Assembly (NCBI RefSeq): GCF_001422725.1
Contig: NZ_LMMA01000033.1
Location: 124,001-188,000 of the forward strand
Source: Flavobacterium sp. Leaf82
Lineage (GTDB): Bacteria > Bacteroidota > Bacteroidia > Flavobacteriales > Flavobacteriaceae
Length of the DNA: 64,000 bases
Reading direction: 5' to 3'
Under the pieces are notes generated by a model, which was not told the origin of the DNA, did not search any database, and saw nothing but the letters and a program-made list of their open reading frames with translations. A program made the translations under genes and the position numbers. Below, in pieces: positions 6,252 to 61,528 of the stretch. Position 1 is the stretch's first letter. Every line of letters begins with the position of its first letter.

Positions 6252-6284
6252 CAAAAAAAAAGGCTTGTCGTGATGACAAGCCTT
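6252..6284 (-). terminator. trp attenuator: intrinsic terminator upstream of trpE
   Basis: On the minus strand the sequence is AAAAGGCTTGTC, loop ATCAC, GACAAGCCTTTT followed by more T (nine in all), a strong 12-bp stem with U-tract. It lies between the leader-peptide stop codon and trpE, 48 nt before the trpE start. Seven bases of its loop and 3' arm (6267-6273, TCACGAC on the minus strand) exactly complement 6324-6330, the bases around the leader stop codon, which provides a competing antiterminator. Confidence 0.92.
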
Positions 6285-6323
6285 TTATATTTTATAGTTT
6301 TACAATACCATAGGAAGCTTAGT

Positions 6324-6380
6324 TCACGACGTTTGACGTAAATTCTTCCACCACCAAGTATTGTTTATTATTGTTTTCAT
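6324..6380 (-). CDS. trpL: trp operon leader peptide with three tandem Trp codons
   Basis: An 18-codon ORF reads MKTIINNTWWWKNLRQTS then TGA. Three consecutive TGG codons at positions 9-11 are an attenuation signature. The start codon is 18 nt from the -7 box, so the untranslated leader is very short. A ribosome stalled on the Trp codons would leave the bases at 6324-6330 free to pair with the terminator, whereas a ribosome reaching the stop codon would cover them and permit termination. Lack of charged tRNA-Trp would thus switch on trpE and the rest of the operon. The ORF is too short for routine gene calling. Confidence 0.92.
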   Translation of the reverse strand: MKTIINNTWWWKNLRQTS

Positions 6381-6397
6381 ATCTTATTTTGATTTCA

Positions 6398-6426
6398 CAA
6401 ATATATAAATGTAATTTGAATTACAA
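6398..6426 (-). promoter_or_regulatory. trp operon promoter (Bacteroidota type)
   Basis: On the minus strand, TATATTTG at 6398-6405 matches the -7 consensus TAnnTTTG, and a TTG at 6424-6426 lies 18 nt upstream in the -33 position. It immediately precedes the leader peptide. The predicted transcription start is near 6391. Confidence 0.7.
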
Positions 6427-40798: not shown

Positions 40799-42508
40799 TT
40801 ATTTAGGAATAGATATTTTTGCCTTAAACCCTTTATCAGGTTCTGTGTCAAAATCAATAGTTCCTTTAACAGCCTGAATACGGTTTTCCATGTTTTGGAG
40901 ACCATTTTTTACCATCTTAGTTTTTTCGGAACCCTTTCCATTATCAGTATAGTTTATTAAGATTGATTTTTGATCGCTTTCAAATTTTATAAGAACCAAA
41001 TTTGCTTTACTGTGTTTCTTCATATTCACCATTAATTCTTGTAAAATACGGCTAATGGTAATCTTTTTTATATCATCAATAATTTCCCAGTTTATACTTT
41101 CTATATTAGTTGCAATGATATTTCTTTCGGGGGTATTATATGTTGATAACATTTCTTTTATCCTGTTGGTAAAGTCTATTCCGGTATCAATTTTATTGTT
41201 CTCTCTCGAAATCCCTCTTACACGTCCGTAAATATCATCTAATTTTTGGAGTAGATTCTCTTTGGTACTTTCTTTAGATAACGGCTGAGATTCGGCAAAA
41301 GCGATGACATGAAATACATCGTTTGCTAATTCATCGTGTATTTTTTTTGCAATTCGGGTTTCAGTGTTATAGGAAGTCTTAAATTCTATGGCTCTGTTTT
41401 TATTCTTGTAGTAGCGTATTAAAATTGCAATTAAAATCACTAAAAAAACAAAGACAATTACAAAAACAATTCGTAAATATTTGTCTTTTTGAAGAGATAA
41501 AAGGTTTTCTGCTTTTTCTAAGCGAAGTTTTGCGTTTTCATCTTTTTCTTTTTTAGAATCGTATTTAATTTTAGCAAACTTATTTTTAAAGTTATTTCGA
41601 ACCTTAATAATACTGTCGTTTAAAGTAAAATACCTTTGCACATATGTACTATTTTTAGCACTGTGATCATTAGATATTAAAATTTGTAATGCTTCTAATC
41701 TTTCGTCAACACTATTTAGCTTTGTGGCTGCATTGTAAGCAGCTAGAGCATTTTCATTTGACTTCTGAATATCTTTTTTAGCATAATAATCAGCAAGGTG
41801 TAGATAACTTTCAATACTTCCATAATAATCCTTAAGTTTATTTCTGGTCTGGAGTGCTTTATTCATTAAATAAAATCCTTTTTCATCCATTCCTTTCTTA
41901 AAATAGGCATAACCCAAGTTATCCAAAAGTCTGGATACACTAAGTATGTCAGCTTTCTCCTTTACTATTTTTTTGCTTAAAAGAGATTCTAAAAGAGAAA
42001 TTGCTTTGTCGTATTTTTTTAGTTGAATATATACTGGTCCAATATTACTTAAAGGGTTTAGCTTTTCAATAGGATCGATATATTCTTTTGCAGATTCTTT
42101 ATAGTAAAAAATAGCGTCATCATAAAGAGTAAGTTCCTTATCAGCTATACCCAATATATTATTTATAGAAGCTGTATAAATACTCTTTTTTTTAACATAA
42201 AGTAGTGCTTCGGTTACTGTTTCCTTACTACCGTAATAATCTCCATTAACTTGTTGTATTGACGCCATTTCAATAAGTATATAACCAATATTAGCACTAT
42301 CTTTTAACGTTTCATAAAGTTTTTTTGATTTATAAAACTGGTAAAAAGAGGTATTGAAATTTTGTTTATTGTAATTTTCAATGGCTTTATTTCGTAAACT
42401 AGATGCCTCTTTTCGTATTGATTCTTTGTTTGTATTAAGATGCTTTTTTTCTTTACAGGAAAAAAGGAAAAGAAGTATAATAAAATAAAAAAACGGGGAC
42501 CGTAACAT
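40799..42508 (-). CDS. Lipid-anchored TPR sensor histidine kinase 1 (orphan)
   Basis: The 569-residue protein begins MLRSPFFYFIILLFLFSC with a lipobox (Cys 18). About 300 residues of TPR-type helical repeats follow (YNKQNFNTSFYQFYKSKKLY, GYAYFKKGMDEKGFYLMNKA), then a short coiled coil (KDENAKLRLEKAENLLSL), one transmembrane span near residues 347-364, and a HisKA_3/HATPase module with RIAKKIHDELANDVF (phospho-His near residue 391), ILQELMVNMKKHS and NYTDNGKG. The periplasmic part should sense a peptide or protein. There is no adjacent response regulator. It is a close paralogue of the 58221 kinase. Confidence 0.9.
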   Translation of the reverse strand: MLRSPFFYFIILLFLFSCKEKKHLNTNKESIRKEASSLRNKAIENYNKQNFNTSFYQFYKSKKLYETLKDSANIGYILIEMASIQQVNGDYYGSKETVTEALLYVKKKSIYTASINNILGIADKELTLYDDAIFYYKESAKEYIDPIEKLNPLSNIGPVYIQLKKYDKAISLLESLLSKKIVKEKADILSVSRLLDNLGYAYFKKGMDEKGFYLMNKALQTRNKLKDYYGSIESYLHLADYYAKKDIQKSNENALAAYNAATKLNSVDERLEALQILISNDHSAKNSTYVQRYFTLNDSIIKVRNNFKNKFAKIKYDSKKEKDENAKLRLEKAENLLSLQKDKYLRIVFVIVFVFLVILIAILIRYYKNKNRAIEFKTSYNTETRIAKKIHDELANDVFHVIAFAESQPLSKESTKENLLQKLDDIYGRVRGISRENNKIDTGIDFTNRIKEMLSTYNTPERNIIATNIESINWEIIDDIKKITISRILQELMVNMKKHSKANLVLIKFESDQKSILINYTDNGKGSEKTKMVKNGLQNMENRIQAVKGTIDFDTEPDKGFKAKISIPK

Positions 42509-42526
42509 ATAAATTTACTTTCCCCG
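42494..42526 (-). terminator. Terminator-like hairpin enclosing the start codon of histidine kinase 1
   Basis: On the minus strand CGGGGA-AA-GTAA, loop ATTTATATG, TTAC-GG-TCCCCG is followed by seven T and ATTTT. The ATG is the end of the loop. The noncoding 5' arm exactly complements the coding 3' arm. It can work as an attenuator between the lipoprotein gene and the kinase and also hide the start codon. The paralogous locus has the same structure. Confidence 0.75.
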
Positions 42527-42566
42527 AAAATAGTAATAAATTAGATACTAAAAACATATAAATTTA

Positions 42567-42749
42567 CTAAGCAGGTGGTGGCAATTTCGGTGGTGTAACT
42601 CCATCGCCTGGACCATCAGCATAAGTTGATTTTATAGGATTAATATTTTTTTGTATTTCTTGTTTAGGTTGAGTTTCATACTCATCCGGAGTACAAGAAA
42701 ATATAGTGAACAATAACGCAAAAGCGATTAATAGTATTAGTTTTTTCAT
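42567..42749 (-). CDS. Small lipoprotein with YADGPGD tail, copy 1
   Basis: The 60-residue protein has a lipoprotein signal (KKLILLIAFALLFTIFSC, Cys 19), a short polar region TPDEYETQPKQEIQ, and a Gly/Pro-rich tail STYADGPGDGVTPPKLPPPA. Copy 2 at 59976-60149 has the same plan: a lipobox, then DEYDE, then YADGPGD. It precedes the TPR histidine kinase on the same transcript. A role as ligand or modulator of the kinase is inferred from conserved linkage alone. Confidence 0.8.
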   Translation of the reverse strand: MKKLILLIAFALLFTIFSCTPDEYETQPKQEIQKNINPIKSTYADGPGDGVTPPKLPPPA

Positions 42750-42835
42750 TTTAATTTAATTTAGAAATTAGACATAGGTATTGCTGTCCGGATTTGATCC
42801 AGAACTTGATTGAGGCAATACCAAATTGCTTTTTT

Positions 42836-42898
42836 GGGAAGTAAAGTGTGTAGAACTGTAAGACGTTGTTTATACTTCCCGATTAAACTCGGTCTTAC
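42836..42898 (-). promoter_or_regulatory. Conserved 5' leader with predicted H-type pseudoknot, copy 1
   Basis: On the minus strand four segments alternate: GTAAGAC (42892-42898), GGGAAGTA (42873-42880), GTCTTAC (42858-42864) and TACTTCCC (42836-42843). Segments 1 and 3 pair (7 bp) and segments 2 and 4 pair (8 bp), so the order gives an H-type pseudoknot. It lies in a leader of about 220 nt that also has a GGTATTGC/GCAATACC stem near the start codon. The whole leader is conserved in copy 2. Confidence 0.6.
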
Positions 42899-42976
42899 GG
42901 TTTTTTACACTATTAATTTGAACTAGTTTATATTTATGTTTTAGTCTGCAGACAAAACCTGAACTAATTTCTTTGG

Positions 42977-43057
42977 CAAAGTAAAGGCGCTTTGAGCCCT
43001 TTGTAGATAGGGGATTCCCAGAATTCCCGCGTTTTCCCAAGATTCCTAAAAATTCCC
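42977..43057 (-). promoter_or_regulatory. Promoter and phased GGAA(T) repeat array of module 1
   Basis: A -7-like TTACTTTG lies at 42977-42984. Upstream, at 43010-43057 on the minus strand, GGAA occurs five times at spacings of 10, 9, 10 and 9 nt. No -33 box is clear. The layout suggests cooperative binding of a regulator on one face of the helix; the response regulator of module 2 is the natural candidate. Confidence 0.55.
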
Positions 43058-43059
43058 TA

Positions 43060-43842
43060 AAACAAAATACAATGCATAGTAATTTAGGTCTGTGAGAACC
43101 TGTTATTTGAATGTAAAACGAATCTGATCTCTATTATAATAGATGCAAAAAGTTCTGAAAAAGTTGGATTGAACTATAAAAAAAAGTTAAAAATGTAAAC
43201 TTGAAGAAATTAATAAATTGAGATTAATAATAGAACTAATCAAATCGCAGAAAAAGGAGAAATTAATCATAGAATTACGTTTGGTTTTTGAAAAATGAAA
43301 ATGAAGAGTCGAAAGAGAATCCTGAAACGGGAAATCTTTTGTTTGATTTTAAAATTATATTTTCTAAAAAAACAGTTTAGAAGATATAGCAAGGAAAAAT
43401 AATTATGGTATAAATTGGAGTTTTCGCTTTGGGACTATCTGCGTGTTTATATTTTGCGCAGAAAAAAGGGGAGATCGAATAATTTCTAAATGAAATTGGG
43501 AAGCATTTTGAAAAATAAAATGCTTAAAGAAGTAAAAAGAATAAATTTTTGAGGTGTAATTTAGGAGTTTAAAAAGTTTGTTTTTCGGCATATATTTATA
43601 GTTATTTATACTATAAAGATAAGTAAAATTAACCAATAAACCTAGTGATAACAAGGGAAATACACGTTTTTTTTACTTTTAAATGGATATTTTTTTGTAT
43701 AATTTTCCGGATGTTATTACTAATTTTAAAGTTATAAAATTTGCTTTTCCTTAGAAGTTGAATTGTAATAAAATTATCTATATTTATAAAATATTACAAT
43801 AGATTTTGATCTTGGTCACTATCAGTTTTAAAAATATTCTTT
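43060..43842. other. Gene-poor AT-rich interval with possible gene remnant
   Basis: No intact gene is supported here. On the plus strand near 43417-43480 a stop-bounded stretch reads IGVFALGLSACLYFAQKK, resembling a membrane-protein fragment, but stops lie just before and after it. The interval may hold a decayed gene. The rest is AT-rich. Confidence 0.35.
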
Positions 43843-50208: not shown

Positions 50209-51924
50209 TTAGAACATGAAATACAGTTGGGCTAATGGTAGTTTGTCTGCTGGCTCACAAGTAATATGTTCACCGTCTACAAATACTTTATAATTCTCTG
50301 CATTTACTTCGATATTCGGAGTTCCGCTGTTGTGAATCATGTTTTCTTTTGAGATGTTACGACAGTTTTTTACCGGAAGCACCATTTTTTTCAAACCATA
50401 TTCTTCAACAATTCCTTTCTCGATAGAAACCTGAGATACAAAAGTGGCACAAGTACCATATTTAGCTTTTCCGTGTGCACCAAACATATTTCTGTAAATG
50501 ATAGGCTGAGGTGTTGGAATAGAAGCGTTTGGATCTCCCATTTTTGCTGCTGCAATAAATCCGCCTTTGTAGATTATTTCTGGTTTTACGCCAAATAAAG
50601 CAGGTTTCCACAGTACAAAATCGGCTATTTTACCAATTTCGATAGATCCTACATAATCAGAGATTCCGTGAGCAATCGCAGGATTTATAGTGTATTTAGA
50701 AATGTATCTTTTTACACGAAAATTATCATTTTCAGTATCTGTTTCCAGATATCCTCTTTGCGAGCGCATTTTACTGGCAGTTTGCCAGGTTCTGGTTACT
50801 ACTTCTCCCACGCGTCCCATGGCTTGAGAATCTGAACTCATGATACTAAAAACCCCCATATCCTGCAAAATATCTTCGGCAGCAATAGTTTCAGGACGAA
50901 TTCTGGAATCTGCAAAGGCAACATCTTCAGGGATATTTTTACTTAAATGATGACAAACCATTAGCATGTCTAAATGTTCATCGATCGTGTTTTTAGTATA
51001 TGGTCGTGTTGGATTTGTCGATGCCGGCAAAACATTCTTATACATCGCCGCTTTTATAATATCCGGAGCATGTCCGCCGCCGGCACCTTCAGTATGAAAA
51101 GTATGTATTACCCTGCCATTAATAGCGTTCATCGTATCTTCTAAAAACCCGGATTCGTTAAGCGTATCGGTATGTATAGCAACTTGCACATCATATTTAT
51201 CTGCTACAGTTAGCGATGCATCAATAACTGCAGGTGTTGCTCCCCAGTCTTCGTGAATTTTTAATCCAAGAGCACCAGCTTCAATTTGTTCTATTAAAGG
51301 TTGTTGGGTAGAGCAGTTTCCTTTACCAAAAAATCCTAAATTCATTGGATATTCTTCTGCGGCCTGAAGCATTTTTTCAAGGTTCCATTTTCCGGGAGTT
51401 ATGGTGGTAGCATTTGTTCCGTCGTTAGGTCCGGTTCCTCCACCAATCATTGTGGTAATACCGCTATACAAGGCCGTTTCTATTTGTTGTGGACAAATAA
51501 AATGGATATGTGTGTCAATTCCGCCAGCAGTCAGGATATAACCTTTACCGCCATGAACCTCTGTTGAGGCACTTATAATCAGGTTAGGATCTACACCATC
51601 CATAATATCAGGATTTCCGGCTTTACCAATTCCTACGATTTTACCGTCGCGAACACCAACATCTGCTTTTACGATTCCCCAGTGATCAATGATAATAACT
51701 CCGGTAATACAAAGGTCTAATGAACCTTGGTCTCTTACTGTCGTGGTAGATTGTCCCATACCATCACGAACGGTTTTTCCTCCGCCAAAAATTACCTCAT
51801 CGCCATATACGGCATAATCTTTTTCGATTTCGATAATTAAATCGGTATCACCTAATCTTATTTTGTCTCCTGCTGTAGGTCCGGCAAGATTGGCATATTT
51901 GTCTCTGGTTATTTTCAGGCTCAT
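50209..51924 (-). CDS. ureC: Urease alpha subunit
   Basis: The 571-residue catalytic subunit has [19 protein letters not shown] with the first nickel-ligand His pair, [19 protein letters not shown] with the carbamylated Lys, [28 protein letters not shown], the flap [13 protein letters not shown] with the active-site His, and [16 protein letters not shown]. It hydrolyses urea to ammonia and carbamate. The sequence appears fully intact. Confidence 0.98.
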
Positions 51925-54254: not shown

Positions 54255-55157
54255 TTATTCCTTGTCTAGAATAAAATCCTTGATAATATTTTCCATATTT
54301 GATGGCAAATCAGCATTTTTAATTTCAAAATGGCTTATTTTCATTTCGGTAAACCATTTTGTCCAATATTCACGGATTACTTTTTCTTCGTACGGATTGT
54401 TTTTATTGGGGTTAATACCAATTACCAGAACTTCAAGATTCGATAAATCATCGTTTGCTTTAATAAAACCAAAATCCTGATCTTGTAATTTTTTATCCCA
54501 GTCTTTTGTGTTGAGTCCATTTTTTCTAATGAGTTCCGGAGTGATGTATGTTGTACGATTTCCTTCTTTCATTACCGTACTTTCATAAAACAGATATCCG
54601 TCAGTGAGTATAACAAGTATGTTTCGATATTTATTTTCAATGCATTGGTCTTTTACTTTATTGTCAAAAAAGCTCCATATATCTGATCCTACATATTTGT
54701 TGTCTTTTATAGCCGACTCGTATATTTTTGATGTCTTCGATGCATAATCTGAATTGATTGAATTCAATAATTTTTTTGAAGCATTATTTTTATCAATCGT
54801 AATTCTCAAATCCTTAGCAATGGTATTAATTGCCGGATCGAGAGGTTCCGGATTAAAAAACAACTGCATTTTATCATCAATCTGTCTTATTCTTTTTGAT
54901 TTTAAATGTTGCGTAAAAGCTTCAGAAACAGATTTTATATATCCCAAATCCCTTTGGTAATATTCCATAGTGGGGTTAGGATTTTTTTGAAGACTAATTC
55001 TATCCGATAAATCCAGGAGAATACTGATGTTGTAATTTTCTGAAACCGGACTTTTTGCCAACGTTTCTTTTTCTTCTTTCTCTTCAGAATCCTTCTTGCA
55101 CGAAACTGTAGAAACCAGCAATAATGAGATTGCTATTACGGTTAAAATGTTTTTCAT
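54255..55157 (-). CDS. VWA-like lipoprotein
   Basis: The 300-residue protein has a lipobox ending STVSC (Cys near residue 20), an acidic linker, then NISILLDLSDRISLQKNP, a MIDAS-like DxSxx start, followed by YRNILVILTDGYLFY and LEVLVIGINPNKNNPYEE, the strand and motif order of a von Willebrand A domain. It is the last gene of a five-gene operon and would lie on the periplasmic face or outer membrane. Confidence 0.78.
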   Translation of the reverse strand: MKNILTVIAISLLLVSTVSCKKDSEEKEEKETLAKSPVSENYNISILLDLSDRISLQKNPNPTMEYYQRDLGYIKSVSEAFTQHLKSKRIRQIDDKMQLFFNPEPLDPAINTIAKDLRITIDKNNASKKLLNSINSDYASKTSKIYESAIKDNKYVGSDIWSFFDNKVKDQCIENKYRNILVILTDGYLFYESTVMKEGNRTTYITPELIRKNGLNTKDWDKKLQDQDFGFIKANDDLSNLEVLVIGINPNKNNPYEEKVIREYWTKWFTEMKISHFEIKNADLPSNMENIIKDFILDKE

Positions 55158-55162
55158 ACTTA

Positions 55163-56431
55163 TTAATTTTTAGAATAAATCAAATGTTGAAAATCAGGAT
55201 CGATGAGGTTTAATTTGCTTAAATGTTCTTCTGAAAAAAGATCGCAATTTTGTAATAACTCCGTTTTTTCGGTGTGAGGTAAAGCAATTTCAGTATTAAT
55301 TGCCTGAAACCATCCTTCTTTATATTGATGATGATAATGCAGATATTCTTTTACAGGAAACACAAAACCGTCAATTTTAGATTGTAATTCAGATATTTTT
55401 CCTGTTATGGTTACTATTTGCTGTTTAAAATCATTGACCTTGTTGATGTAATCTGTTTTTAGTTTTTCGAGATCAAGAAGGTTTTCTTTTTTACCTCTAA
55501 TAAATGCCCTGATTTTATCGATGTTTTCAAATTCTTTCATCACAAAATCAAAAACAAGTCCCCAGATAATATAAACCACAAATCCGGCAAATATGATCAT
55601 CCAAAACTCAGCTTCGCCCAATGCGATATTCAAATTATAAGGTGCAGAATCTGTAGTTTTGTTAAATTCATATATTTTCTTTTCGATTTGATATGCTAAA
55701 AGAGCATCAAACAGAAATGTTGTAACAAATAGGGCAATCATTCTGAAGACGTTTTTAATACCTTTTCCTTTTTGCACCATATGTATTACGTAGCCTAAAC
55801 CCATAAATACAAACGGAATCGTAATTACCAAAACACCTTCAAGCCAGCTTGCCTTAAAAGAATTGGTCAACGCATTTGCATCAAAAATTGCAGCGGTTAA
55901 ACTATCATTTGCAAATTCTTTGAAAAAAGCAGAATAAGATGCCGAAATGTAAAACACCAATACATAAAGCGTTATAGGAAGCAACAAAAATAAACCAATA
56001 TAAAATTGTGCTTTTAAGCCCTTTCCGTCTTCGATTCCGTATTTATCAGGATTGCGTTTTACCTCGATAATTTCATTTTTGATCTGGTCGATTTCATCCG
56101 TAATATCCTGTTCTTTTTTCTCGTATATGCCTATTGCGGCTTCAGATTTTTTAAGCTCGGTTCTGTTTTTTTCCTGTTCCTCCTTATAAGGTTGTTTTAA
56201 TCTGTCTTGCTCCAGTTTTTGTTTTCGGCACTGATCTTCAAAACTCATATATAAGTTTTGCAGACACGCTTTTAGAACAATTGGTTTTCCGGTTGCTTTT
56301 ATCGATGCAGCAAATCCGCTTTGATAATACGTTATTCTGATTTGTTCTCTGTCTTCTTCATTTTCGTCTAAAGTTTTGATTTGAGAATCCTCTGTTTTTT
56401 TTAAACTGAATAGTTGTGATAGTGGTTTCAT
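55163..56431 (-). CDS. Multi-pass membrane protein with coiled coils, unknown function
   Basis: The 422-residue protein has an N-terminal Lys/Glu-rich coiled coil (about residues 65-140, IYEKKEQDITDEIDQIKNEI), four or five membrane spans between residues 140 and 300 (LKAQFYIGLFLLLPITLYVL, GVLVITIPFVFMGLGYVIHM, FWMIIFAGFVVYIIWGLVFD), a second coiled coil and a hydrophilic C-terminus. No family motif is recognised. It lies between the TerB-like and VWA-like genes with gaps of 3 and 5 nt, so these three are certainly co-transcribed. Confidence 0.8.
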   Translation of the reverse strand: MKPLSQLFSLKKTEDSQIKTLDENEEDREQIRITYYQSGFAASIKATGKPIVLKACLQNLYMSFEDQCRKQKLEQDRLKQPYKEEQEKNRTELKKSEAAIGIYEKKEQDITDEIDQIKNEIIEVKRNPDKYGIEDGKGLKAQFYIGLFLLLPITLYVLVFYISASYSAFFKEFANDSLTAAIFDANALTNSFKASWLEGVLVITIPFVFMGLGYVIHMVQKGKGIKNVFRMIALFVTTFLFDALLAYQIEKKIYEFNKTTDSAPYNLNIALGEAEFWMIIFAGFVVYIIWGLVFDFVMKEFENIDKIRAFIRGKKENLLDLEKLKTDYINKVNDFKQQIVTITGKISELQSKIDGFVFPVKEYLHYHHQYKEGWFQAINTEIALPHTEKTELLQNCDLFSEEHLSKLNLIDPDFQHLIYSKN

Positions 56432-56434
56432 AAC

Positions 56435-56845
56435 TTAGGAATTTAATTGACTAATAATTTCTTCTTTCTGAATATTTTTTTGAACACAATCAATAAGATA
56501 ACTGGATAAATCATTGATGTTTTCATCCAAAAAATTAAATTTTCGGCAATACTTTTTCAGCATATTTTCTTCATCATCCGTAATCTTTCCATCTGCCCAA
56601 ATGATTCTTGTAAAATCGTACAAGTATTCTATTTTGGTAGTTAAATTTTCCGGTACAATAAACTCTGTACTAATAGGATTTAGAAAAAGCTTATCAAGTT
56701 CCTCTCTCGGAATTCCGCGTTCGTCTGCAAAGTGATATAGCATCTGAAGTTCTAAAACATCAAATTGATCATCAGACAATGCCATTTGATATAATCTTAA
56801 AAAGTGGCTTTTTAGTTCGATAGTCATGTTAGTTGATTCATTCAT
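56435..56845 (-). CDS. TerB-like protein
   Basis: The 136-residue all-helical protein has ALSDDQFDVLELQMLYHFAD near residues 18-37 and FTRIIWADGKITDDEENML near residues 74-92. The pattern ADGxxxxxExxxL is diagnostic of TerB-fold domains, which bind metal or act at the membrane in Ter stress systems. Neighbours are a YidD-like and a membrane coiled-coil protein. Confidence 0.82.
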   Translation of the reverse strand: MNESTNMTIELKSHFLRLYQMALSDDQFDVLELQMLYHFADERGIPREELDKLFLNPISTEFIVPENLTTKIEYLYDFTRIIWADGKITDDEENMLKKYCRKFNFLDENINDLSSYLIDCVQKNIQKEEIISQLNS

Positions 56846-57545: not shown

Positions 57546-58214
57546 TTAAATAATCCCCATATCTTTTACGATAGAAACCAAATGAACGGTATTATTTGCT
57601 TTAAAAAAATCTTTCAATTTCGAAAGTCTTTTTTCCATAGCACTTTTGCTATTGGGTTTTACACCCAAGTCTTTAAATATTTGTATGATTTCGTCTTGAG
57701 GCGTTCCGGATGATAAATGTTTTAAAATTTTAATATCGAGATCGTCTATTTCGAAATTGCTTTTTTCCTGCAATGCAGAGGCAACTTCGGGAGAAATATA
57801 TTTTCCTTCAGAGGTAGAAATGAGATTGATTGCTTTCTTTAATTCTTCGATACTTGTTAAACCCTTTAATACAAAACCATCAATATCTGCATTATCAAAA
57901 AGAGATTTAATTCGGTAACTTTTATCTTCTACAGAATAGGCAATGATTTTAATATCAGGTTGTAATTCCCGAACTTTTTGAACCAGTTCGTCACCATTGG
58001 TAATTTTTACTTCTCGATGATCTGTCTTGAAAGAAAGATCACTAATCAATAAATCATAAGGTTCATTTTTATTAATAGCTGCGCGTATTTTCAAAAACGC
58101 ATCATCACAATACTTTGAATGTTGAAACTCAACAATATTTAAATCTTTTAAAACTTGCTCAATTCCTAAACTGATAGCATCAAGATCTTCGGCTATTATT
58201 ACTTTTTTAAACAT
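57546..58214 (-). CDS. Response regulator, NarL/FixJ-like
   Basis: The 222-residue protein has an N-terminal receiver domain (KKVIIAEDLDAISLGIEQVL, DLLISDLSFKTDH with the phospho-Asp near residue 59, IIAYSVEDKSYR, GFVLKGLTSIEELK) and a C-terminal divergent helix-turn-helix (LDIKILKHLSSGTPQDEIIQ, NSKSAMEKRLSKLKDFFKAN). It starts 6 nt after the kinase at 58221, so the two form an operon. It likely binds the phased GGAATT arrays. Confidence 0.9.
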   Translation of the reverse strand: MFKKVIIAEDLDAISLGIEQVLKDLNIVEFQHSKYCDDAFLKIRAAINKNEPYDLLISDLSFKTDHREVKITNGDELVQKVRELQPDIKIIAYSVEDKSYRIKSLFDNADIDGFVLKGLTSIEELKKAINLISTSEGKYISPEVASALQEKSNFEIDDLDIKILKHLSSGTPQDEIIQIFKDLGVKPNSKSAMEKRLSKLKDFFKANNTVHLVSIVKDMGII

Positions 58215-58220
58215 AGGCTT

Positions 58221-59924
58221 TTATTTAGGCAGTGTTATTTTTACTTTGAATCCTTTTTCTGGTTCAGTGTCAAAAGTAATAGTTCCTTTTATGGATAAAA
58301 TACGGTTTTCCATATTTTGCAAACCATTTTTTACAATTTGATCTTTTTCACAACCTTTTCCGTTATCGGTATAATCAATAAAAACTATTTTCCCGTTACT
58401 TTCAAACTTTAAAACAACGATCGAAGCCTGACTATGTTTCTTCATATTGACCATTAACTCTTGTAAAATTCTCTGAATGGTAACCTTTTTAATAGTGTCT
58501 ACTAATTCCCAATTTACTTTTTCGATATTATTAATAATCACGTTTGTATTGCTGCTATTATAAGTCGAAAGCATTTCTTTTAGATTGACTGAATAATTTA
58601 TTCCGGTATCGATACTATTGTTTTCTCTCGAAATTCCGCGAACGCGAGTATAAATATGATTCAGTTTTTGTAGCAAGTTTTCTTTTATTTCCTCTTTGGT
58701 CAAAGATTGCGTTTGCGTAAAAGTCATGGCATTAAAAACATCATTTGCCAACTCGTCATGAATATCTTTCGCAATTCTGGTTTCGGTATCGTAGGCAGTT
58801 TTTATTTTCTCAATCCTGTTTCGGTTTTGGTAATATTTTCTGAGATATAATGATAAAAAGAGTAAAGCAATAAATCCAATTATTAAAAATATTCTTTGGT
58901 ATCTTGCTTCTTGAAGCGATAATTCATTTTCTGCTTTCTCTAAACGCAGTTTTTGGTTTTCGTCTTTTTCTTTTTTAGAATCGTATTTTATTTTGGCAAA
59001 CTTATTTTTAAAGTTATTTCTAATCTTAATAATACTGTCATTTAGATAAACATATTTTTGAGCATATTCTGTAGTATGAATGCTGGATGTATTCGAAATT
59101 AAAAAAGATAATGATTCCAGGCGTTCATCAATACTATGCAATTTTGTAGCAATTTGATATGCCGTTTTCGCATATTGATGAGATTTATCAGGATTTGTTT
59201 TCGAGTAATATTCTGCAAGATGTATATTGCTTTCGATATTACCATACGTATCGGCGATTTTGTTTCTTAGGTTAAAACTATCTTGCATTAATAAAAGTCC
59301 TTTTTCTGATAGCCCTTTTTTAAAATAAGCATAACCTAAATTATCCAAAATTTTTGCTTTGATATAATAATTTTCTTCAGCAAGTTTTTTGTTTACTATA
59401 GACTCCAAAATTTTAATGGCCTCATCATATTTCTTTTGCTCAATAAATACAACGGCAATATTGTTTAACGGATATTGTTTTGATGCTTCGTCTGTACAAT
59501 CTTTTAAAGCTTCTTTGTAATAAAAAATGGCATCATTGTATAACGAAAGTTCTTTATCTGCAATGCCGAACAAATTATTAATAGCCGCACTGTAAATATC
59601 TTTCTTTTTAATATAAGGTAATGCCTCGGTCAGGGTTTCTTTACTGCCATAATAATCGCCATTTATTTGCTGAATGGTAGCCATTTGAGTAAGATTGTAT
59701 GTAATATTACTACTGTCTTTTGTGGATTCGAATGCTATTTTTGATTTATTAAAATAATAAAAAGCACTATTGAAGTTTTTATTTTCCAGATTAGAGATTC
59801 CTTTTTCTCTTAAATTATAGCCTTCTTCTGAGACTGTTTTTTTGTGTATAGATGAAGTCGTTGTTTCTTTGCACGAAAGAAAAATCAGGAAAATAAGGAA
59901 ACAAAAAAACGGGGACCGTAGCAT
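58221..59924 (-). CDS. Lipid-anchored TPR sensor histidine kinase 2
   Basis: This protein of 567 residues starts MLRSPFFCFLIFLIFLSCKE with a lipobox (Cys 18), followed by TPR-type repeats (GYAYFKKGLSEKGLLLMQDS), one membrane span, and a HisKA_3/HATPase domain (IAKDIHDELANDVFNAM, ILQELMVNMKKHSQAS, DYTDNGKG). An in-frame upstream start at 59966 adds residues across the hairpin and is rejected. It is paralogous to the 40799 kinase over its full length and is coupled to a response regulator. Confidence 0.92.
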   Translation of the reverse strand: MLRSPFFCFLIFLIFLSCKETTTSSIHKKTVSEEGYNLREKGISNLENKNFNSAFYYFNKSKIAFESTKDSSNITYNLTQMATIQQINGDYYGSKETLTEALPYIKKKDIYSAAINNLFGIADKELSLYNDAIFYYKEALKDCTDEASKQYPLNNIAVVFIEQKKYDEAIKILESIVNKKLAEENYYIKAKILDNLGYAYFKKGLSEKGLLLMQDSFNLRNKIADTYGNIESNIHLAEYYSKTNPDKSHQYAKTAYQIATKLHSIDERLESLSFLISNTSSIHTTEYAQKYVYLNDSIIKIRNNFKNKFAKIKYDSKKEKDENQKLRLEKAENELSLQEARYQRIFLIIGFIALLFLSLYLRKYYQNRNRIEKIKTAYDTETRIAKDIHDELANDVFNAMTFTQTQSLTKEEIKENLLQKLNHIYTRVRGISRENNSIDTGINYSVNLKEMLSTYNSSNTNVIINNIEKVNWELVDTIKKVTIQRILQELMVNMKKHSQASIVVLKFESNGKIVFIDYTDNGKGCEKDQIVKNGLQNMENRILSIKGTITFDTEPEKGFKVKITLPK

Positions 59925-59941
59925 AAAACTTACTTTCCCCG
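59910..59941 (-). terminator. Terminator-like hairpin enclosing the start codon of histidine kinase 2
   Basis: On the minus strand CGGGGA-AA-GTA, loop AGTTTTATGC, TAC-GG-TCCCCG, followed by seven T. The ATG is in the loop, as in copy 1. The 5' arm is noncoding, so its conservation is not explained by protein constraint. Confidence 0.75.
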
Positions 59942-59975
59942 AATTTACTAATTTATTATATATCAACCAGTATTC

Positions 59976-60149
59976 TTAGTCTGGTTTTTTTGGTGGTGGA
60001 ATCGGTATAACAGCATCGCCGGGACCATCGGCATATGTTGGTACTGTAGGTTTAACTTCTTTTTTAACCTCATCGTATTCATCAGCTGTGCAAGAAACAA
60101 CAGTTGTACTCAATAGCGCAAACGCTCCCAATATAAATAACTTTTTCAT
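59976..60149 (-). CDS. Small lipoprotein with YADGPGD tail, copy 2
   Basis: A 57-residue ORF reads MKKLFILGAFALLSTTVVSC (lipobox Cys 20), then TADEYDEVKKEVKPTVPT, then YADGPGDAVIPIPPPKKPD. It is the counterpart of copy 1 and is easily overlooked because of its length. The first half after Cys is acidic and the tail is rich in Pro and Gly. It precedes kinase 2 by 51 nt. Confidence 0.82.
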   Translation of the reverse strand: MKKLFILGAFALLSTTVVSCTADEYDEVKKEVKPTVPTYADGPGDAVIPIPPPKKPD

Positions 60150-60234
60150 GTTTTTATAATTTTAAAAGTAAGCATGAGTATTGCCGTCCGGAGTTCATCC
60201 GGATCTTGTTAAAGCAATAATCATTTCGTGTTTT

Positions 60235-60298
60235 GGGAAGTGAAGTGCGTAGAACTATAAGAGGTTGATTTATACTTCCCGGATAAATCTTGTCTTAC
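60235..60298 (-). promoter_or_regulatory. Conserved 5' leader with predicted H-type pseudoknot, copy 2
   Basis: On the minus strand the four segments are GTAAGAC (60292-60298), GGGAAGTA (60273-60280), CTCTTAT (60257-60263) and ACTTCCC (60235-60241). Segments 1 and 3 pair over 6 bp, including one G-U, and segments 2 and 4 over 7 bp. The arrangement and leader length (about 220 nt) equal those of copy 1. Confidence 0.6.
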
Positions 60299-60374
60299 GG
60301 TTTTCCGTACTTTTAATTGAACTAGTTTTGTATTTTTGTTTTAATTCGATATCGAATAAGAACTAATTCTGAAG

Positions 60375-60498
60375 CAAAGGAACAACGCTTATGAGCCTGT
60401 TTTGATAGGGAATTCCGGGAATTCCGATGTATTTTTTGAAGTCCTGAGAATTCCGTAGAAGTCCTTGAAAATCCAATTACGAAATCCTTAAAATTCCG
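60375..60498 (-). promoter_or_regulatory. Promoter and phased GGAATT repeat array of module 2
   Basis: A -7-like TTCCTTTG lies at 60375-60382. The array 60408-60498 holds GGAATT, GGATTT, GGATTT, GGACTT, GGAATT, GGACTT, GGAATT and GGAATT units on the minus strand; four consecutive ones start exactly 10 nt apart. The array ends 8 nt before the start of the divergent 60506 gene, so it may control both directions. Confidence 0.6.
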
Positions 60499-60505
60499 CA
60501 AGCGT

Positions 60506-61528
60506 ATGCCAAACAATACTTTTGAAGATTATAAAATAGCTGTTAAAAAGAAGTATGAGATTGAAAAAAAAGGCGATCATTCTTTTTATTTGAGTAGTCC
60601 CACGAGAGCAAGACTTCGTAATTTGTGTTGGGAGTTATTTCAGCAGCAAAACAGAAATCAAGATGATTTAAATGTTTTTAGTTCTTTATTAGGACTAGCT
60701 TTTGATGTGAATAAAAGAAATAAGTTTGATGAACAAATAGATAAATTCAGACCTATTGATAATTATTTTAAAGGAGAAAGTGATCCCGCAAATGTTGACG
60801 CAGTAAATATGGCTGCAATTCTGGTAGATTTTGAAGCAAGACCTTTTAATAAATTTAGACTTAAAGAGTTATTTAAAGATGAAATTCAAGTTGATGATGA
60901 AGACGAAGTAGGATTCTCAAGTCCGGAAAGAGAACAAAGTGAACAAAAGAAGAAAATTGACAGTTCATTAATTTTGGATACATTTATTGATGAAAAGGAA
61001 AAAGAAAAAGGAAGGGAAAAAGGAATTGAAGATGAAACTCCAATATTTAGAACAAGAGAAAAAGTAACTGATATTGAAGTAAGACAGCCAACAATAAATT
61101 CATTTGCAAATACAAGTATTGAAAGAAATCATAAAAAGAAATTTCCACCAATAACGATAAAACACGCCATTGTATTTGCCTCAGTTTTTTTATTTATAGG
61201 ATTTGTAGTGATCTATTTTGCTTTTCCAAATAAGGAATGCATGCAATGGTCTGGCGATCATTATGAAATTGTAGATTGTGAATTGAAAATACAAGGTGTT
61301 GGCAAGTCATCTAATATCGAAATTTTAGATCCAACTCTCGTTAATCTCAAAAAGATTAAAGTTTGCGATACCACAACTTATTTTGATAAAAACGGAGTAG
61401 CGATTATTTGGTATGCTAAAACAGCAAACGGAATTGATTTTTTTAACGTTCATGGCAGACATCCGGAAAATAATAGTCCGTTACGACCTGTGACGCATTA
61501 TATCATAAATAAGTATGTAAAAAAATAA
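60506..61528 (+). CDS. Single-pass membrane protein of unknown function
   Basis: The 340-residue protein has a cytoplasmic N-terminal part (FYLSSPTRARLRNLCWELFQ near residues 27-46, a conserved-looking helix), a charged linker (about 120-220), one membrane span (IKHAIVFASVFLFIGFVVIY near residues 219-238) and an extracytoplasmic C-terminal part with MQWSGDHYEIVDCELK and FDKNGVAIIWYAKTANGIDF. No known domain is recognised. It is divergent from module 2 across its repeat array. Confidence 0.78.
   Translation: MPNNTFEDYKIAVKKKYEIEKKGDHSFYLSSPTRARLRNLCWELFQQQNRNQDDLNVFSSLLGLAFDVNKRNKFDEQIDKFRPIDNYFKGESDPANVDAVNMAAILVDFEARPFNKFRLKELFKDEIQVDDEDEVGFSSPEREQSEQKKKIDSSLILDTFIDEKEKEKGREKGIEDETPIFRTREKVTDIEVRQPTINSFANTSIERNHKKKFPPITIKHAIVFASVFLFIGFVVIYFAFPNKECMQWSGDHYEIVDCELKIQGVGKSSNIEILDPTLVNLKKIKVCDTTTYFDKNGVAIIWYAKTANGIDFFNVHGRHPENNSPLRPVTHYIINKYVKK

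Follow-up and report, generated by a model that had tools for sequence, protein, structure and literature searches.

Does a histidine kinase with a tetratricopeptide repeat (TPR) sensor find its ligand encoded next door? The question is raised by a minus-strand unit at 40799-43057 of a 64,000-nucleotide stretch of Flavobacterium sp. Leaf82 DNA (contig NZ_LMMA01000033.1, positions 124,001 to 188,000; hereinafter the window, to which positions refer unless a locus is named). Bacteroidota commonly encode large kinases of this type, for most of which no signal is known. An earlier note on this DNA had described the unit as a phased repeat array, a leader, a 60-residue lipoprotein, and a TPR kinase, and had reported the same order and conserved noncoding DNA at 57546-60498. 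We found these elements in that order in both places (copy 1 and copy 2), with a mean column identity of 79% across the aligned upstream region and lipoprotein and 61% identity between the two kinases. Three elements had been missed, namely, a divergently transcribed gene (gene X; 60506-61528, plus strand), a relic of it at copy 1, and a hairpin at the kinase start codon. Comparison of these loci leads us to favor, with some reserve, the explanation that they form a self-contained envelope signaling cassette. The earlier description as a duplicated module holds insofar as both copies are there but is too narrow: judged by sequence relatives, the cassette is Flavobacteriaceae-wide and extends to some relatives.

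Distribution of the cassette

A genome-contig scan yielded 79 near-relative loci, nearly all labeled Flavobacterium, from the best 80 of 313 relative-encoding stretches. The search that the earlier note had proposed, for homologs of the lipoprotein beside TPR kinases, came out in its favor: a small exported protein precedes the kinase in all 78 testable near relatives, as it does in both window copies, and the leader start motif is present in 77 of the 79 loci (L059 gave no leader match, and the contig of L070 ends too near to show a small protein or a leader). When reading frames are used, 70 of 81 loci, both window copies counted, have a response regulator as the next gene after the kinase; tblastn finds one in 71 of 79. 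No adjacent regulator is present at copy 1 or at most of the loci that are sisters to it. Within the Leaf82 genome, the leader motif (≤3 mismatches), the lipoprotein (E ≤ 0.1), and the double array unit (0 mismatches) occur only in these two places. Among 199 Flavobacterium genomes, 88 have gene X or a short paralog of it (E ≤ 1e-8) and 107 a kinase of the cassette group, its sister branch included (E ≤ 1e-70).

More divergent Flavobacterium loci reveal that the parts come and go together. Of 46 such loci (L128, L129, and the 10-base entries L130 and L131 being excluded), 38 have a divergently oriented X, and all 38 of these have the small protein, 31 of the 44 loci in the script table by script, L098, L104, L110, L124, and L126 by reading, and L096 and L097, which are outside that table, likewise by reading. 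By coordinates, X lies within 1.2 kb in 37 of them and at about 2 kb in L113; the strict leader motif is found in 28 of those 37 and in L113. The remaining eight loci lack X and the leader pair as well as an intact small protein (absence established by eye in L132, L135, L138, and L143 and by script in L133, L134, L136, and L137), with L132 keeping a headless remnant of the latter. At the level of the family, X matches were recovered in 64 of 249 genomes and 60 of 235 genera, mostly via the membrane helix and C-terminal domain. In 17 loci from other genera, hand-picked from these matches rather than drawn at random, X, the small exported protein, the kinase, and the regulator stand in the same order in every case. 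Across the class, 10 of 295 genomes have X matches, three of them outside the family; by reading, X in these three is transcribed away from a TPR-type kinase and a regulator, a leader-like region separates the two sides, and a short secreted reading frame is visible that the script does not list. We found no description of such a cassette in the open-licence PubMed Central literature, and a search of defense families gave nothing convincing.

The small lipoprotein as a candidate ligand of the TPR kinase

The kinases (copy 1, 569 amino acids [aa], 40799-42508, minus strand; copy 2, 567 aa counted from the ATG inside the start-codon hairpin, 58221-59924, minus strand) combine a TPR domain, a membrane helix, and a core of the HisKA_3/DesK type. 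The NCBIfam models UhpB and LiaS match this core with E values of 1e-15 to 5e-12, below their curated cutoffs; Foldseek places it closest to DesK (E = 6e-8); Pfam HisKA_3 matches copy 2 at E = 0.067, with copy 1 not listed; and an H-box, IHDELAND, is apparent by reading. Structure comparison places the TPR fold closest to peptide-bound LGN/Pins, and the signal sequence, by reading, suggests that the TPR domain is periplasmic. Copy 2 is followed by a 222-aa response regulator (57546-58214, minus strand) with a receiver domain and a C-terminal part that is weakly NarL/LuxR-like. Of the 78 kinases from the loci, 47 entered the kinase alignment, together with both window copies and three paralogs from contig C5 of the same genome. 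These three are tandem TPR kinases of the same family with one response regulator (L011 6893-12845, minus strand); they form a sister branch of the kinase family, and no small lipoprotein was seen among the reading frames listed there. With these three included, the genome encodes five further kinase relatives with 27 to 40% identity; two weaker matches cover just the kinase core.

The small lipoproteins (copy 1, 60 aa, 42567-42749; copy 2, 57 aa, 59976-60149; both minus strand) have a lipobox by reading, and that of copy 1, with ...STYADGPGDGVTPPKLPPPA, has a proline-rich tail, YADGPGD.... The earlier note had spoken of a YADGPGD lipoprotein next to homologous kinases; those exact letters did not prove general, with DGPG in 41 of 79 loci and GP[GDE][DE] the common form of the tail core in near relatives, by reading. 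At E ≤ 1, the sole Pfam match of the window lipoproteins is a conotoxin model (E = 0.096). In L047 two small lipoproteins stand in tandem between leader and kinase, and the same arrangement is suggested for L053, which has two lipoprotein-like reading frames and whose leader lies some 690 bases upstream.

The earlier note had further proposed that this lipoprotein, or a peptide released from it, may be the ligand of the TPR domain. We therefore looked at how the two vary together across 66 loci, giving partial values conditional on the kinase core, regulator, leader, and signal peptide. Kinase residues 25-280 vary together with the mature lipoprotein (rho 0.31; partial 0.26, 0 of 500 permutations), and the association resides in the tail (partial 0.37) more than in the linker (0.11). 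The tail does not follow the kinase core (-0.13), nor do kinase residues 1-24, which lie nearest the lipoprotein gene, show much (0.05). The kinase segments with the highest partial values (residues 281-308, 141-168, and 29-56) all precede the predicted membrane span, and those after residue 309 reach at most 0.07. Tail-associated columns favor the A helices of the TPRs, named by us on the structure model, which hold 19 of the top 40 columns versus 90 of the 395 variable ones. This pattern lends evolutionary support, short of proof, to recognition of the tail by the periplasmic TPR domain, and on this comparative basis we consider it reasonably probable that the tail contacts the TPR groove and acts as ligand. 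The threefold tail unit of L096 and L097 (see below) and the likeness of the TPR fold to peptide-bound LGN/Pins point the same way. Several observations weigh against this or the wider model: kinase-core columns 414, 415, and 463 are also among those most strongly associated with the tail; with related loci, a partial Mantel test may be too liberal; the mature lipoprotein does not covary with the C-terminal domain of X (partial 0.006); in other genera the GPGD core is absent from the tails, which are poly-proline or acidic instead; and the lipobox cysteine is lost in L035, while the small protein of L095 has, by reading, no lipobox and a signal-peptidase-I type signal. Because of these last two cases, lipidation is not essential.

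An alternative, which we regard as unlikely, is that the lipoprotein is an envelope sentinel: a protein destined for the outer membrane or cell surface would stay in the periplasm when export fails, meet the TPR kinase, and trigger a stress response, as RcsF and NlpE do in Escherichia coli. Its attraction lies in the residues at +2 to +6 after the lipobox cysteine, which have an acidic excess of 2 or 3 in all 78 parsed near-relative lipoproteins, versus a net charge of -3 to +2 in the same residues of 80 parsed kinases (2 of 80 lipoproteins and 1 of 81 kinases were not parsed). For surface lipoproteins, the export consensus is given (PMC5080379) as SDDFE in F. johnsoniae, which TSDDFE resembles, and as C-X-K-(D/E)2-X in C. 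canimorsus, which CDKDDN in L096 and L097 fits. Lipoproteins of other genera, however, start with CTPTALTD, CTPTSIND, or CTKQSLNN and have no acidic export-type signal, and with the L095 signal this argues that surface export is no constant of the cassette; since other genera do not keep the export signal, we have moved it out of the core of the mechanism, with a surface sentinel as one possible use. The sentinel idea is compatible with the tail acting as a ligand and differs from it just in what varies the dose.

The lipoprotein could also be merely a co-transcribed envelope protein, linked to the kinase as a regulatory convenience. The divergence of the tails across genera fits this, as does the start-codon hairpin (see below), which could uncouple the two proteins; the covariation of tail and TPR domain beyond that of the kinase core, regulator, leader, and signal peptide and the joint presence or absence in the 46 divergent loci make it rather improbable. 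We give still less credence to an exported pheromone: a peptide would be cleaved off the lipoprotein and exit the cell, and the TPR kinase would learn from it of population density or kin. A small exported precursor beside a presumed receptor would suit such a role, as would the tail unit DWG[HY]PPIKPPK, which stands three times in one precursor in L096 and L097, and the fast evolution of the pair (mean distances of 0.55 for the mature lipoprotein and 0.37 for the receptor), but lipidation holds the protein in the membrane, and a periplasmic receptor would require the peptide to cross the outer membrane.

Leader RNA and start-codon hairpin

The region between the promoter-like element and the lipoprotein gene (copy 1, 42750-42970; copy 2, 60150-60370; both minus strand, 5' ends predicted) looks like a pseudoknotted RNA kept across genera. 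Its core is an H-type pseudoknot of GTAAGAC/GTCTTAC with GGGAAGT/ACTTCCC, followed by a two-part hairpin; in copy 1 (minus strand), the arms pair 42892-42898 with 42858-42864 and 42873-42880 with 42836-42843, and the hairpin pairs 42815-42822 with 42777-42784. In an alignment of 66 of the 79 available leaders, the pairs form in 89.1% of cells versus 31 to 51% with slid partners, the covariation score is 0.165 versus 0.117 in shuffles (0 of 500 reach it), and 14 pairs have changed on both sides versus 9.7 in shuffles (3 of 500). In 19 sequences, one G-C pair of the first pseudoknot arm has become A-U. Within these 66 sequences the second arm does not vary and hence yields no covariation, but it covaries across genera, as GAGAAGTA/TACTTCTC in L154 and AAGAAGTA/TACTTCTT in L153. 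In a mixed set of 63 regions that includes divergent and other-genus loci, the second-arm (P3) pair is present in 52, and a first-arm helix with a score of at least 7 is found in 34 versus 12.7 in shuffles, a score that accepts any helix of that topology and so is not always the arm counted on the 66 sequences. A point against the structure is that one of the five measures, the number of further pair types, is neutral (32 versus 32.0 in shuffles). RNAalifold by itself, a program that does not model pseudoknots, returns the invariant helix and one hairpin and not the first pseudoknot arm. No gathering-level Rfam match was found at the window leaders or anywhere in L101, L154, L162, and L163. 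We considered a leader reading frame, NRKTEFIREV; the frame looks to be held by RNA base pairs.

A second RNA element surrounds the kinase start codon (copy 1, 42487-42526; copy 2, 59903-59941; both minus strand) and consists of a CGGGGA...TCCCCG hairpin with a T-run. The strict form occurs in 64 of 81 loci, and near forms are seen by reading in the other 17. In divergent loci the arms change together, as in TCGGGAAATG/CATTTCCCGA and, by reading, TTCGAAGAAT/ATTCTTCGAA; L096, L097, and the L095 form, which the script for these loci missed, were read by eye. The X-less kinases at L135-L138 and the C5 copy of the Leaf82 genome itself have only weak repeats, with folding energies of -3.3 to -7.7; L132-L134, also without X, keep the hairpin. 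Since the script finds inverted repeats in control kinases too, this comparison relies on the arm and the folding energy. We infer a role in attenuation or as a hidden start.

Gene X and its probable phased operator

In copy 2 and most relatives, a repeat array sits between the operon and the divergent gene X. The array of copy 1 (43009-43057, minus strand) consists of GGGAAT/GGAAT units and that of copy 2 (60408-60498, minus strand) of GGAATT/GGATTT/GGACTT units. Over 51 loci including copy 2, a GGA[AT] unit occurs 207 times (shuffles, 27.4), most often spaced by 10, 20, 30, or 39-40 bp. Another 16 loci have an ACTT unit instead, which occurs 130 times (shuffles, 17.2) with spacing peaks at 10, 20, 30, and 40. 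A promoter-like element follows, TTACTTTG in copy 1 (42976-42983, minus strand; of the -7 type) and TTCCTTTG in copy 2 (60375-60382, minus strand), and the last array unit lies 38 bp before its TTTG in 41 of 55 measured loci. Flavobacterium promoters, with whose known consensus we compared these elements, usually have a -33 element; the last array unit stands in its place, which suggests that the promoter needs an activator.

The best candidate for this activator is X itself. Its AlphaFold2 model has an eight-helix N-terminal domain (residues 1-122, nearly all blocks with pLDDT of at least 90), a helix at 218-239, by reading a membrane span, and a β domain at 242-340; most members have 300 to 380 codons, but those of L068, L076, and L086 are short, at about 210. 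Among the full C-terminal domains read in L153-L167, the two cysteines of CM.W..DHYE...C occur together or not at all; this co-occurrence suggests a disulfide and hence a periplasmic location of that domain. Model and sequence agree in predicting that X is membrane tethered, with a cytoplasmic DNA-binding N-terminal domain, one membrane helix, and a periplasmic C-terminal domain.

Covariation with the array, computed over 67 loci with 300 permutations and partial values given all other parts, is concentrated in the N-terminal domain of X: rho is 0.59 for residues 31-85 (0 of 300; partial 0.51), 0.49 for residues 86-120 (partial 0.33), 0.18 for residues 1-30 (partial -0.19), and 0.10 for the C-terminal domain (reached by 5 of 300). 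Linkage alone does not explain this pattern, because residues 1-30, which are closest to the array, covary little. The leader gives 0.04 (52 of 300), and the kinase (0.09, 11 of 300, partial 0.05) and the response regulator (0.095, 8 of 300, partial 0.07) give weak positives that speak somewhat against an exclusive tie to X. That the response regulator binds the array and array and X merely recombined together as neighbors is very improbable, since, although X starts close enough to the array for one event to exchange both and the whole regulator has that weak correlation, the X residues nearest the array covary worst and residues 31-85 best, the C-terminal part of the regulator reaches only 0.07 (31 of 300, partial -0.008), and identical regulator output domains occur with different array classes in L051/L065, L032/L045, and L030/L055. 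We thus did not retain the regulator as first choice for the array binder. The earlier note had placed the array in the signaling unit, and there it is, but it tracks gene X and not the two-component system.

Outside Flavobacterium the N-terminal domain is exchangeable: in 7 of the 17 other-genus loci it is replaced by a different domain without a Pfam family, and such loci have other repeats, for example, TTTC or TGTC units at 10 to 11 bp, which are clear relative to shuffles in L161, L164, and L167. In a unit test on 15 of the 17 loci, repeats were clear (≤3 of 200 shuffles) in L153, L160, L161, L163 (for an AT-rich unit only), L164, and L167 and not clear in the other nine; those of L165 and L166 were seen by eye. 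Taken on covariation and phasing, the array is very probably the operator of X.

Searches for relatives of X give this reading little help. The window X has no Pfam match at E ≤ 1; for the 64 aligned members (63 of 71 X proteins from other loci and the window X), 44 Pfam families match one or two members each, none convincingly (best E = 0.0015), and the winged-helix Trans_reg_C is not among the 25 of these 44 that are listed. NCBIfam offered nothing convincing, the best single match being an anti-sigma factor model in 1 of 64 members (E = 6.7e-5), and a profile search of solved structures gave no relative. Structure comparison of residues 5-120 ranks helix-turn-helix DNA-binding proteins first, with weak Z scores of 2.4 to 3.0; unrelated proteins reach 2.0 to 2.2 over the same residues, so that low Z may mean merely a common arrangement. 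Counting against a membrane-tethered DNA-binding protein are the Foldseek search, without a match at E = 0.001 or better, and L168, whose X gene has, by reading, no C-terminal domain.

At copy 1, only the membrane-anchor end of a short X remains, as a relic of the last ~60 codons (43288-43470, plus strand). By tblastn it matches residues 150-210 of the L086 protein (57% identity, E = 2e-13), and the N-terminal domain is missing. A solo short X paralog lies on contig C23 (L094 1516-2097, minus strand), without a membrane helix and with no array visible alongside, and similar short solo copies are listed in many related genomes. We considered relocation of X from copy 1 to C23, but the solo gene coexists with the second-module X in other genomes and therefore looks like a separate paralog. 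As copy 1 keeps only the last third of X, its array is probably read by the X of copy 2 or by the C23 paralog.

A model for the cassette

Gene order, conservation, RNA structure, array phasing, and the array-X and tail-TPR covariations are read directly from the sequence; the support for the explanation as a whole is comparative throughout, which counts against it. In the model that we favor, X would reside in the inner membrane, and its N-terminal domain would bind the helically phased array and activate the seemingly activator-dependent promoter. One transcript would carry the leader, the small exported protein, the kinase, and, in copy 2, the response regulator, and the pseudoknotted leader and start-codon hairpin may ensure that far more exported protein than kinase is made. 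The exported protein would then dock by its proline-rich C-terminal tail in the concave groove of the periplasmic TPR domain and so set the state of the kinase, to be read out by the response regulator. Copy 1 is probably a satellite that borrows X or the solo C23 paralog, as well as the response regulator, in trans. More tentatively, the whole may be a composite unit in which an exchangeable-head X and its phased operator drive their own ligand/TPR-kinase operon, with the RNA elements setting the ratio of ligand to receptor; head-operator and tail-groove would be two separately evolving lock-and-key pairs that insulate paralogous copies.

Neighboring genes and other features of the window

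Behind the response regulator of copy 2 lie genes for a TerB-like protein (PF05099), a 422-aa membrane/coiled-coil protein, and a 300-aa lipoprotein (54255-56845, minus strand). The TerB-like or the 422-aa protein occurs in the same locus in 43 of the 71 near-relative loci with room, and in L170, from another order of the class, all three genes lie 3' of the regulator. They are possible output genes of the cassette. Elsewhere in the window, Rfam matches were found to 5_ureB_sRNA (97 bits; 51474-51773, plus strand) and to the Bacteroid-trp leader RNA (6275-6400, minus strand). The former is not by itself a sign of that RNA: its model is antisense to the conserved urease gene ureB, which is presumably the sole reason for the match.

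Comparison with known systems

Should the model hold, the cassette would give a tractable system for studying the wiring and balance of an envelope sensor with its ligand and their insulation from other copies within the same genome. The ligand question of a TPR kinase becomes directly testable here, because the candidate is encoded next door, coevolves with the sensor, and is small enough to synthesize. Gene X would add a DNA-binding domain without a Pfam family, together with an operator specificity readable from sequence, and the leader a structured RNA without an Rfam family that is kept across genera.

The earlier note had likened the locus to RRNPP, the peptide-receptor systems of Gram-positive bacteria. 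The analogy stands insofar as a small exported precursor is encoded beside a TPR receptor and its tail may be the ligand, but RRNPP receptors are cytoplasmic and act as DNA-binding proteins or phosphatases, whereas here the TPR domain belongs to a membrane histidine kinase, as the predicted periplasmic sensor of a DesK-type enzyme; we know of no RRNPP-style peptide reimport for the cassette. Rcs with RcsF and Cpx with NlpE share with it a small lipoprotein that feeds, or here would feed, a membrane sensor kinase. However, the Pfam scan gave no RcsF or NlpE match for the window lipoproteins, the surface-export signal of the cassette is found in near relatives and not in other genera, and a single locus encodes its lipoprotein, kinase, and regulator along with the leader RNA and X. 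X itself would recall ToxR and CadC in its predicted N-terminal DNA-binding domain, single membrane helix, and periplasmic C-terminal domain (likenesses drawn from the model, covariation, and reading) and in its divergent target operon. It differs from them in that the window X has no Pfam family, and thus no Trans_reg_C, in that its N-terminal domain can be replaced by another, and in its 10-bp-phased operator. The kinase core and, in copy 2 and most near relatives, its pairing with a regulator resemble DesK/DesR, VraS/LiaS, and the HisKA_3 protein UhpB, to which the cassette adds a TPR sensor, a companion exported protein, and putative control by X and by a pseudoknotted leader. The parts are thus of known kinds, a two-component system and a membrane-tethered regulator, and it is their joining that is apparently undescribed.

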